NCBI RefSeq assembly: GCF_030273445.1
Contig: NZ_CP120678.1
Location: 1,217,501-1,281,500, forward strand
DNA: 64,000 nucleotides
Direction of reading: 5' to 3'
Source of the DNA: Selenobaculum gibii
GTDB taxonomy: Bacteria; Bacillota; Negativicutes; ICN-92133
Shown here: positions 13,270 to 50,805 of the stretch, one piece after another
Layout: each line of letters begins with the position of its first letter
Position numbering within the stretch: position 1 is the stretch's first letter
Translations under genes and position numbers: made by a program
Notes under the pieces: generated by a model
Database searches by the model: none
What the model saw: the letters and a program-made list of their open reading frames with translations, nothing else
What the model was told of the DNA's origin: nothing

Positions 13270-13295
13270 TAGCTGTTCATTATATGTTAAATAGT

Positions 13296-13527
13296 TATGA
13301 TAGAGAGAGTAATTAGCAATCATTTTTTCAGCGAGTCGGGAAATGGTGGGAGCTCGATAGAAGTTGTTAATGAAGATCACTCTTGAACTGCGGATTGAAC
13401 GTAAAGTAGATTGCGCCGAATGACGAACGTTATAACGTCAAAAGTGGCTTTTTATGAGATAAGTCATTAGGGTGGTACCACGGGAATAACCTCTCGTCCC
13501 TTTTTGGGGATGGAGAGGTTTTTTTAT
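13296..13527 (+). promoter_or_regulatory. T-box riboswitch, isoleucine-specific
   Basis: The stem I base with GAGAGAGTAA is at ~13302. A likely specifier codon ATC (Ile) lies at 13376-13378 in the context GAAGATCAC. The T-box sequence AGGGTGGTACCACG is at 13469-13482 and the terminator is CCTCTCGTCCC/GGGGATGGAGAGG plus T-run at 13488-13527. Uncharged tRNA-Ile would pair with the specifier and the T-box bulge to favour the antiterminator and allow ileS expression. Confidence 0.95.
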
Positions 13528-38924: not shown

Positions 38925-39043
38925 TAAGCAGTCTTTGGGGAAGGTGAAACTCCTTACCGGCGGTAAAGCCCGCGAGCCTTTTGGCAGATTCGGTGAAATT
39001 CCGAGGCCGACAGTATAGTCTGGATGAAAAAAGACTTAGCTTA
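38925..39043 (+). promoter_or_regulatory. FMN riboswitch (RFN element)
   Basis: Conserved aptamer segments are present in order: TCTTTGGGG-AAGGTGAAACTCC, ACCGGCGGT, AGCCCGCGAGC, CAGATTCGGTGAAATTCCGAGGCCGACAG and GTCTGGATG. The P1 helix is formed by AGTCTT (38930-38935) and AAGACT (39031-39036), extended by TAAGC/GCTTA. FMN binding would favour the downstream terminator and turn off ribDEBAH. Confidence 0.97.
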
Positions 39044-46678: not shown

Positions 46679-47190
46679 TTATTTTGAACCATTCATTAAA
46701 TTTGCAAATTTTTTAGCCGCATCATTTTGCAATTTCTTGGCTATATGTAAACAAATTTCTTTCGTTAAGGAATCATCTGAATAACCAAGTCTATCTTGAA
46801 TAACTTCAAGTGGAACACCTGCTTCAGCAAGTAGGGAAGTATGGGTATAGAGAAATGAATGTGGATGAATATTTTTGGACTTTAATTTTTTAGCTAAATT
46901 TATCGGATACTATAATTGTTCTTATGGATTTTTTAGTTTTTGGTTCTGTAATTTCATATGACTTATCTTTTTGTTGATATAAATTTTTAGTTGCTGATTT
47001 GCTTTTTTGAAAGGAAAATATTCGGACACTTGACGGACCTTTGTTTTATAGCGTATGGCTGTTGACTCGTAGATAAAAGGGGTATGTTCTGTCAACCACA
47101 TATCAGCTAGTTTAGAAAATGGAATATTTCAGTCAATATAATTTTCTCCATCATTTAATGCTACTTCTAATTTATGCGCAGCGTCCTATC
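46679..47190 (-). pseudogene. Decayed phage-type tyrosine integrase
   Basis: Minus-strand translation gives integrase pieces in order: HKLEVALNDGENYID then a TGA stop; LADMWLTEHTPFIYESTAIRYK (core-binding domain); ITEPKTKKSIRTIIVSDKF; then, after a frame change, HPHSFLYTHTSLLAEAGVPL and LEVIQDRLGYSDDS, ending at TAA (46679). The family HxLRHTH box reads HSFLYTHT, losing the catalytic Arg, and the nucleophile Tyr region is altered. A large internal part of the catalytic domain is missing. It is clearly non-functional, a trace of a past integration next to recG. Confidence 0.85.
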
Positions 47191-47719
47191 TGGGATTAGA
47201 GAAATGACTACAAAATCTCCAGATGCTTTTTACCCGAGGTTAAAGCAAATATTTAGTGAGTGCGGAGTGGCATTTGTGGCATTACCTTATTTGAAAAGCT
47301 CAGGAATAAATGGAGCTGTTAAATGGCTCAATCCTGATAAAGCGTTGTTGTTAATCAATGATAGAAATAAACATGCGGATGTTTTTGGGTTTGCTTTATT
47401 TCATGAAATTAAGCATATATTACAGCAAAAAATTAAAACTATATATTTATCTTTTGATAAGAAAAATTCAGCCGCATCATTAGGAAGTAATAATGAATTA
47501 AATGAAAAGGAAGCGGATGAATTTGCAAGGCAGCGACTTATTCCTGATGAAGAATACCAAGCATTTATATATGAAGAGAATTACAGTAAAAAATCTATAC
47601 AACATTTTGCGGAAAAAATAGATATCCATCCATGCATAGTTTTAGGACGATTAAAATATGATAAAAAATTAGAGTGGAATGTGTATTCTGATTTACGTAT
47701 ACAATATCAAATTATATAA
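47174..47719 (+). pseudogene. 5'-truncated HigA-type ImmA/IrrE zinc peptidase gene
   Basis: The open frame encodes up to 181 residues: SGIREMTTKSPDAFYPRLKQIFSECGVAFVALP, NGAVKWLNPDKALLLINDRNK, and an HEIKH zinc-peptidase motif followed by NEKEADEFARQRLIP. This is the C-terminal part of antitoxins that normally begin with an XRE helix-turn-helix (HigA/ImmA-IrrE fusion). The DNA-binding N-terminus is missing because the sequence abuts the integrase remnant at about 47180. The remaining peptidase domain looks intact. No ribosome site is evident and no toxin gene is adjacent, so I treat it as a relic. Confidence 0.7.
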
Positions 47720-48992: not shown

Positions 48993-49042
48993 AAAGCTCT
49001 AGACAGTAGTACAAATGAGTATTACTGTCTAGAGCTTTTTAT
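48993..49042. terminator. Bidirectional terminator at the end of the HipA-like operon
   Basis: A 16-bp perfect stem (48993-49008 with 49023-49038; core AGCTCTAGACAGTA) followed by TTTTTATTTTA on the plus strand; on the minus strand it sits immediately after the kinase stop codon, with a short T-run. Confidence 0.8.
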
Positions 49043-49043
49043 T

Positions 49044-49793
49044 TTATATAAGTTGTTCCTCTTTAGTTTTTGGCAAAATAGCTTCTGCTATTTTTTCGAT
49101 ATTATCAAATCTTGTTATAATAAAATCTATTAAATAGTTTAAATCAAAGTCCCCTTTTTCCCATTCATCTGGAATTTGTGAGATAATAGATAAAATTTCA
49201 TTTTTGCTAATCGTTTTTATACGGTTTATATATGGATAAAAATCTTCTTTTGTTAAGAAGTTTCTTAATAGTACCCCGTATAAATGATTTTGATATACAG
49301 ATACTTGCTTAGTAAGTTTTTTTAAAACTTCGTTATTCCAATGGCTACATTTAAATAGATGAGAATTATCGATTGCATAAATGCGATGACCTAAATGCGA
49401 AAATAAAAGATTTTTTCTATTCATTATTCTGTCTGGATTGTGAAAGATATGATCAAATAGTATTACTCCAGCCATTTCCTTAATATTTATAGCCTTTTTA
49501 AAATGATCATGATTAAGATATTCTACATAAGGAATATATTGGGAAGCAAATTGTAAAGAAAAAAAAGATTCATTCATTTTTAATTGGCTTATATCAATTA
49601 AATCGCTATGGGGAAAAATTAATTCTAATCTTTCTCCAATAAATTTTCCTAGAAATTCACTAATTAGTATTTGTGCTGGTATGTTTTTCTTATTGGTTTT
49701 TACAATATATATATTCCCATCATTGGCCTCACAAAAGAATGGGCAGGTAACGCCAACTCCTACATTACCAAGAACCTTTTTCCCTCTTAACAT
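49044..49793 (-). CDS. HipA-like kinase (HipA_2 type)
   Basis: 249 residues. The N-terminal GNVGVGVTCPFFCEANDGNIYIVKTNKKN matches the nucleotide-binding part of HipA-like kinases (Lys32 the likely ATP lysine). The catalytic loop appears as HNPDRIMNRKNLL (Asp121, Asn125/Asn128) and the metal-binding Asp as IDNSHLF (Asp142). The standard HipB antitoxin is absent. It lies 6 bases behind the repeat protein gene on the minus strand and has no obvious ribosome site, so translation may be coupled. It likely phosphorylates a partner or an unknown target; function is not established for this subfamily. Confidence 0.75.
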   Translation of the reverse strand: MLRGKKVLGNVGVGVTCPFFCEANDGNIYIVKTNKKNIPAQILISEFLGKFIGERLELIFPHSDLIDISQLKMNESFFSLQFASQYIPYVEYLNHDHFKKAINIKEMAGVILFDHIFHNPDRIMNRKNLLFSHLGHRIYAIDNSHLFKCSHWNNEVLKKLTKQVSVYQNHLYGVLLRNFLTKEDFYPYINRIKTISKNEILSIISQIPDEWEKGDFDLNYLIDFIITRFDNIEKIAEAILPKTKEEQLI

Positions 49794-49799
49794 AGTCGT

Positions 49800-50396
49800 T
49801 TATCTACAACAGCAATGACATTTTGTATCTCCACCAGAAACAGACGTAATTGCTTCTAAATTTACCACTACGGAGCGAATATTTCTATCAGATATAAATT
49901 TATTACAGCCAGGAATGAAAATTTCATCAACAGTAAGAATTGCTAGATCTCTACAAACTTCACTAGGTACGCCTTCAAATAAAAATCCACCTGTGGTAGT
50001 AATAGCCACATTGTTTCCGATTAAGCGTTTTAAACTTCTAACTAAACAATCATATTCACGGTCTTGACCTTCTCTTATAATTGGTGTGTCATCATCACAA
50101 GATAAAGTACTATAAACAGGATCGCATACAATACCACTACCTTTAGCAATAATACTCCATAAGTCTATTCTAGCAAAATTGACAGTAACTAAACACCCGC
50201 CTGGAGTAATAATTTCTACATCAGAAGTTACGGCTGTAATTGCTGGAGTTAAAACAGCCATACGACAATCTTCTATTGCTTGTAAACGACCGAAATAAGT
50301 AAAGCCATCAGCACCTAATAACAATATATCACTGTTTACTTCCCGTTTTAGGTCGCAAATTAATTCTTCATTTTTTATTCTACAGTAAAAACTCAT
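49800..50396 (-). CDS. Tandem-repeat protein with Cys-rich C-terminus (possible spore-surface protein)
   Basis: 198 residues made of two homologous units: residues ~14-50 (LKREVNSDILLLGADG, FGRLQAIEDCRMAVLTP) and ~121-157 (LKRLIGNNVAITTTGG, FEGVPSEVCRDLAILTV). Shared positions include LKR, a G-F pair, a G-x-x-x-x-x-x-C-R run and A-x-L-T. The glycine/strand pattern suggests small beta barrels, as in DUF2642-type coat proteins. The tail is C-H-C-C-C-R. GGGAGGG lies before the start. A sigma-K-like promoter upstream suggests expression in the late mother cell. I do not recognise a named family. Confidence 0.6.
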   Translation of the reverse strand: MSFYCRIKNEELICDLKREVNSDILLLGADGFTYFGRLQAIEDCRMAVLTPAITAVTSDVEIITPGGCLVTVNFARIDLWSIIAKGSGIVCDPVYSTLSCDDDTPIIREGQDREYDCLVRSLKRLIGNNVAITTTGGFLFEGVPSEVCRDLAILTVDEIFIPGCNKFISDRNIRSVVVNLEAITSVSGGDTKCHCCCR

Positions 50397-50435
50397 AATA
50401 AAACCCTCCCAAATAGATTTAGCATGATTTTACTG

Positions 50436-50464
50436 TACAATATGCAATAACAAGAAATGATGTG
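50436..50464 (-). promoter_or_regulatory. Candidate sigma-K promoter
   Basis: Read on the minus strand: CACA (50464-50461), 16 bases, CATATTGTA (50444-50436). This fits the B. subtilis sigma-K consensus mACm-N16-CATAnnnTA at every defined position. The predicted start of transcription is ~30 bases before the repeat-protein start codon. Confidence 0.6.
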
Positions 50465-50532: not shown

Positions 50533-50560
50533 TTGACACTATTGGAACAATTAGTATAAA
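50533..50560 (+). promoter_or_regulatory. Sigma-A promoter of the dapB operon
   Basis: TTGACA (50533-50538), 16-base spacer, TATAAA (50555-50560), just before the lysine riboswitch. Confidence 0.8.
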
Positions 50561-50592
50561 ATGTACATAAATTAAATAGAAGTCCTGCATAG

Positions 50593-50763
50593 GATGTAGT
50601 AGAGGTGCGATTAAATAAGAGTATTTCCATGGAGAAGGGGTTTGATGATGTGGATTGAAAGGATTTGTCGCCGAAGTTTCAATATTTCCCAAAATGTTGA
50701 TTCTGGTTTAACATTGAAAAAATGTTAGATTGTCACCAGATATTGGTGGAGAGCTATCTCATC
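50593..50763 (+). promoter_or_regulatory. Lysine riboswitch (L box)
   Basis: Diagnostic segments in order: GTAGAGGTGCGA, AAGAGTAT, GGAGAAGG-GG, GAAAGGATTTGTCGCCGAAG, TTCTGG and TGTCACCAGA...TGGTGGAGAGCTATCTC. The outer helix is GATG (50593-50596) with CATC (50760-50763) plus TAG/CTA. Lysine binding would promote the terminator at 50806 and shut off dapB-asd-dapG, giving end-product control of lysine and diaminopimelate synthesis. Confidence 0.93.
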
Positions 50764-50805
50764 TAGAATAGGGTCTTGAACCCTAGGAGCTGCCTTATAT
50801 AGAAA

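Follow-up and report, generated by a model that had tools for sequence, protein, structure and literature searches.

Within a 64,000-nucleotide stretch of contig NZ_CP120678.1 of Selenobaculum gibii (positions 1,217,501 to 1,281,500; hereafter the window), two adjacent minus-strand genes encode a small protein with an internal repeat, P1, and a HipA-related kinase, K, and we asked what such a pair might do in a spore-forming lineage. To our knowledge, spore-coat assembly has been worked out almost solely in Bacillus and Clostridioides. Sporulating Negativicutes possess an outer membrane. A first-pass annotation of the window, made from sequence alone, had taken the pair for a sigma-K-driven module of a cross-linked coat repeat protein and a HipA-like kinase; no description of the pair was found among the open-access papers searched.

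P1 and K form a compact two-gene unit

Both reading frames lie where the first-pass annotation had placed them, and they are intact, co-directional and 6 bp apart, with a sigma-K-type promoter before them and a perfect hairpin after them (Table 1). As read from the sequence, the promoter, a strong ribosome-binding site, P1, K and inverted repeat form a compact two-gene transcription unit, in which the repeat is a likely terminator by virtue of its sequence rather than of a terminator score. Divergent from the pair lie a lysine riboswitch (50592-50764, +) and, after it, dapB. Upstream of this riboswitch and of the dapB-asd-aspartokinase genes we noted a second sigma-K-like match, AACA-N16-CATAAATTA (window 50546-50574, +), which could be fortuitous (expected number in the window, 0.8) or could link the aspartate pathway with dipicolinate provision during sporulation. 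Other RNA elements of the window are a T-box leader (13288-13504, +) and an FMN riboswitch (38927-39039, +).

Table 1. Features of the P1-K unit, in window coordinates
Feature	Position	Strand	Basis
Sigma-K-type promoter CACA-N16-CATATTGTA, 3' end 39 bp from the P1 start codon	50436..50464	(-)	Pattern match
P1 ribosome-binding site, GGGAGGG	50404..50410	(-)	Read from sequence
P1, predicted tandem Sm/LSm-fold protein, 198 aa	49800..50396	(-)	ORF and predicted fold
P1 domain 1, residues 10-89, helix plus strands, Sm-like	50130..50369	(-)	Model, profile
P1 linker, residues 94-113, mostly low confidence	50058..50117	(-)	Model, relatives
P1 domain 2, residues 115-188, second Sm-like domain	49833..50054	(-)	Model, profile
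P1 C-terminal tail, GGDTKCHCCCR	49803..49832	(-)	Sequence, relatives
K, HipA_2-family (PF20613) kinase, 249 aa	49044..49793	(-)	ORF and Pfam
K catalytic residues	Lys32 49698-49700; Asp121 49431-49433; Asn128 49410-49412; Asp142 49368-49370	(-)	Homologue alignment
Perfect 16-bp inverted repeat AAAGCTCTAGACAGTA...TACTGTCTAGAGCTTT, directly 3' of K	48993..49038	(-)	Read from sequence

A sigma-K-type promoter is conserved upstream of P1

The promoter claim was based on a strict sigma-K pattern, mACm-N16-CATAnnnTA. As this pattern occurs four times in the 64-kb window against 0.8 expected, the match upstream of P1 is weak on its own, and its weight comes from conservation. The strict pattern was present upstream of P1 in 24 of 31 relatives, a set that includes close relatives, and absent from the remaining seven, whereas only 0.36% of random 120-bp stretches contained it. 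The upstream consensus reads GTAACAcT, spacer, TCATAcAGTATAGTA. Control by sigma-E instead of sigma-K was rejected: its pattern was found in 0/31 P1 upstream regions compared with 8/20 for spoIVA, where the sigma-K pattern was found in 0/20; several of the spoIVA start codons had been placed automatically, some of them clearly wrongly.

When the 932 ORFs in the fetched loci were clustered by similarity, three of the clusters with at least five members were enriched for the sigma-K pattern: a His/Cys/Tyr-rich coat-like protein (9/15), P1 (18/32, a count that takes in remote members) and a YkuD protein (10/23). It therefore appears to be a general late-sporulation promoter and not a signal specific to P1. 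Across whole genomes, a stringent form of the motif was rare and close in number to its reversed-pattern control, and in the window's own genome a similar stringent motif matched no obvious coat genes. Sequence conservation makes predicted sigma-K control of P1-K well supported. In this genome sigK is itself split (G000:C1:819434-858202, outside the window; L128 and L129): about 38 kb separate its two parts and a large serine recombinase immediately precedes the second, the layout of a skin-type intervening element, so that sigma-K presumably needs excision in the mother cell. Many relatives have sigK splits of differing length.

P1 is predicted to be a tandem of Sm-like domains

No Pfam or NCBIfam family matched P1 above cut-off. 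Members of the P1 alignment matched Pfam LSM and SM-ATX weakly (9/19 each; best E = 0.0076 and 0.0012, respectively), below the LSM cut-off. The AlphaFold2 model of P1 (mean pLDDT 83, pTM 0.81) has two helix-plus-strand domains with a mostly low-confidence linker between them, and a search of the PDB with this model returned spliceosomal and archaeal Sm/LSm proteins as the best matches (E = 1.3e-4, probability 1.00). According to the model, then, P1 is composed of two diverged Sm/LSm-fold domains, each a helix plus a five-strand barrel, which replaces the earlier reading of a generic cross-linked coat repeat. The internal duplication proposed at first pass held up well: profiles of the N- and C-terminal halves matched each other (probability 94%, P = 1e-7), and the model shows one fold twice. 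In one genome (G019) each half has an ORF of its own (100 and 85 aa), and shorter relatives in other genomes are probably single-domain.

The Cys-rich tail, likened at first pass to those of coat proteins, is present in P1 and common among its relatives, but not universal. Linker length in the relatives ranges from 13 to 69 residues, and one linker carries a long S-run and NTNSH repeats. Ser and Thr are moderately enriched in the linkers (22% versus 14%), and we consider the linker a candidate phosphorylation region. A Ser/Lys/Arg repeat region is absent from P1 and its relatives, and inspection of P1 by eye revealed no obvious Sm2 RNA-binding motif.

K is a HipA_2-family protein with a complete active site

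K matches Pfam HipA_2 (PF20613) with 78.9 bits against a curated cut-off of 27 (E = 4.7e-22). This was the sole Pfam match above cut-off, with no canonical HipA domain, and the CotH family was not matched at E up to 1. Used alone as a query, K gave no match in a first scan of genome contigs. The four key residues highlighted at first pass (Lys32, Asp121, Asn128 and Asp142), together with Glu46, do not vary among 35 homologues, the window's K included, so the active site is complete and K is predicted to be an active kinase. As also claimed, no HipB-like helix-turn-helix gene is adjacent to K; the partner upstream is P1 with its predicted Sm fold. For K, structure prediction gave a model of moderate quality (pLDDT 75) in which the N-lobe is poor; the model's best matches, all weak, were the HipA-like kinase CtkA, PI4-kinase and HipA. 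In a maximum-likelihood tree, P1-linked kinases grouped (97/98) with one stand-alone kinase of genome G036, and the remaining Negativicutes HipA_2 kinases fell outside. The window's own K sits on a long end branch (1.2 changes per column).

The pair follows sporulation genes across Negativicutes

We surveyed 60 Negativicutes genomes, drafts among them, in which sporulation was inferred from marker genes. HipA_2 and spoIVA were each present in 29, both in 28 and neither in 30, giving concordance in 58/60 (Fisher P = 1e-14). Relatives are non-independent samples, but the family-level count remains strong, with HipA_2 in 14/15 families with spoIVA versus 0/11 without (P = 1.6e-6). One exception, G036, has HipA_2 and an intact sigK without a spoIVA match in a draft of 200 contigs; the other, G018, has spoIVA and sigK and lacks HipA_2 in a genome that is 87% complete. 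Clear P1 genes were present in 20 genomes, each of which has a spoIVA match (partial in G029), and adjoined K in 18; K was not adjacent in G019 and G041, nor at one Lucifera locus of a separate scan. That scan found K just downstream of P1 in 17/18 loci, with carriers including Sporomusa ovata, S. silvacetica, Pelosinus fermentans, P. propionicus, Propionispora and Lucifera. Lucifera butyrica has two copies of P1, one with K downstream and one without (L103 and L109). The first-pass annotation had anticipated this adjacency in spore-formers and a sporulation-linked HipA-like kinase, and the outcome that it had named as refuting its reading did not arise: homologues were not common in the non-sporulating genomes of the sample. 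Outside Negativicutes, P1 was found neither in about 290 genomes of the phylum searched with a single sequence nor in about 195 searched with a profile. HipA_2 occurred outside the class in three genomes of the phylum, two of them with spoIVA, and the short flanks read there contained no coat-type neighbours. By these sequence comparisons, a tie of P1-K to sporulation is well supported.

In several other families, too, the pair adjoins recG, and the debris at about 46.6-49.0 kb therefore sits between recG and an older, conserved pair. This ancestral place rules out the pair as cargo of a decayed island: the genes are intact, as the first-pass annotation had observed, but they are not part of the island in which it had set them. 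The debris separating recG from the pair includes an IrrE-type (Peptidase_M78) ORF at window 47174-47719 (+).

A sister kinase clade lies beside SipL-domain proteins

For most HipA_2 kinases outside the P1-linked group, synteny is conserved: the kinase gene immediately follows those of two SipL/SPOCS-domain proteins, of which the second also has an SH3 domain. In Clostridioides difficile, SipL takes part in morphogenesis of the coat. The cluster, seen at L041 and syntenic loci (G000:C1:233000-246000) in spore-forming Negativicutes, also contains genes for a YkuD transpeptidase, a cyanophycinase-like Peptidase_S51 protein and a cyanophycin-synthetase-like protein. Ser-rich linkers were noted by eye in the SH3-containing SipL proteins. 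Both kinds of HipA_2 kinase are present once in the window's genome, where a 707-aa gene lies between the second kinase and the SipL genes. HipA-type kinases may have been co-opted for spore assembly across spore-forming Negativicutes, with one clade serving coat morphogenesis at the level of SipL and the other, driven by sigma-K, acting on an Sm-fold coat layer, a wider picture that we propose tentatively and at slightly less than even odds.

Upstream of the SipL genes we also observed a family of small His/Cys/Tyr-rich proteins (L062:10018-10326 and relatives), the cluster with the sigma-K-type promoter in 9/15 members, which is likely to be an undescribed coat protein.

Possible roles of P1 and K

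We favour, with a probability of roughly 55%, the reading that P1-K is a late mother-cell sporulation operon and coat module of spore-forming Negativicutes, in which P1 would be a scaffold of the coat and K its kinase, the pair matching CotH with CotB and CotG in function. Sigma-K RNA polymerase would read P1 and then K in the mother cell. Since Sm folds assemble into rings and arrays, and cysteines allow cross-linking, P1 would most likely be a self-assembling building block of the spore coat, made of two Sm-fold domains, a flexible linker and, in many species, a Cys-rich tail. K would most likely phosphorylate coat proteins in the mother cell, the variable, Ser/Thr-enriched linker of P1 being the first candidate substrate, and would thereby tune assembly of an outer layer, in the way that CotH acts with CotB and CotG in Bacillus. 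We infer that K may act on coat proteins, and on P1 especially, because the two genes are adjacent, the active site is intact and CotH with CotB/CotG offers a parallel (PMC7821199). The favoured reading draws on the structure and conserved adjacency of the genes, the fold predicted for P1, the conservation of the K active site, the co-occurrence with sporulation genes, the conserved sigma-K promoter and the paralogous kinase clade by SipL-domain proteins; expression timing, coat location, kinase activity and the use of P1 as a substrate are its predictions.

The late-sporulation setting would also suit a kinase whose main substrate is another coat protein, a lipid or a small molecule, with P1 anchoring K at the spore surface. 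The sister clade manages without P1, P1 and K are separable in the genomes and the Lucifera locus named above, and PI4-kinases are among the weak structural matches of K, all consistent with this possible but less probable arrangement; however, P1-K adjacency has been kept over many families, and no second gene is comparably linked to the P1-type kinase clade. Sm and LSm proteins usually bind RNA, and the predicted fold would allow P1 to be a mother-cell RNA-binding protein of the Hfq kind, regulated by K, the pair controlling late gene expression and not the coat. We consider this improbable, since P1 has no obvious Sm2 motif, its Cys tails and variable linkers suit a structural protein better, and other sigma-K promoters in these loci mark coat-like genes.

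A shade less probable still is that K has lost phosphorylation and keeps its kinase fold as a scaffold, as a structural or regulatory coat protein: the long end branch of the window's K would fit such a loss, but the invariance of the key catalytic residues in all homologues, the window's K among them, argues against it. The order of the genes, a small one directly upstream of a HipA-related kinase, is that of hipB-hipA, and P1 could on that ground be an antitoxin in a HipBA-type pair. This is very improbable, and we rejected it on partner fold, promoter and distribution: P1 is modelled as an Sm fold rather than a helix-turn-helix, K matches HipA_2 without a canonical HipA domain, co-occurrence with sporulation genes is strict and accompanied by a sigma-K promoter, and the pair has a fixed chromosomal place rather than a patchy spread. 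For the favoured coat module, P1-K offers a ready gene pair for testing in cultivable Sporomusa or Pelosinus.

Comparison with known systems

HipA-type kinases are best known as persistence toxins. K shares their superfamily and catalytic residues and has weak structural matches to HipA and CtkA; unlike HipBA, P1-K has neither HipB nor a canonical HipA domain, has a sigma-K promoter and, in the Negativicutes sample, is confined to sporulating genomes. A coat role of K, if true, would give HipA-type kinases a function outside toxin-antitoxin systems. With Sm/LSm proteins P1 shares a predicted N-terminal helix plus strand barrel, but it differs from them in having two domains per chain, a link to sporulation, scores below Pfam cut-offs and no obvious Sm2 motif. 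SipL/SPOCS-domain coat morphogenesis proteins (PF12673) are connected to the pair through the paralogous kinases encoded directly downstream of two of them, whereas a SipL domain is missing from P1 and the pair maps elsewhere in the genome.

The N-terminal part of CotB, like P1, is made of repeats. In the outer coat of Bacillus subtilis, CotH phosphorylates Ser/Lys/Arg repeats of CotB and CotG, and the N-terminal part of CotB self-interacts (PMC7821199). P1-K is like this system (PMC7821199) in that the gene of an atypical kinase is clustered with one for a structural coat protein, as P1 is predicted to be, and in its late mother-cell expression, which for P1-K the promoter suggests; it is unlike it in that K is a HipA_2 protein without a CotH match and P1 has no Ser/Lys/Arg repeats. 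Comparison of P1 with a provisional CotB query sequence gave no significant relation (P = 0.25 for the whole alignment and P = 0.02 for the C-terminal half against the CotB repeats). P1-K resembles the CotH module in outline without belonging to it. In Negativicutes, a conserved sigma-K operon that includes a kinase gene of its own would suggest that coat phosphorylation arose with different kinase families, and our analysis suggests that spore-forming Negativicutes use a kinase of their own for building the spore coat, where Bacillus uses CotH.
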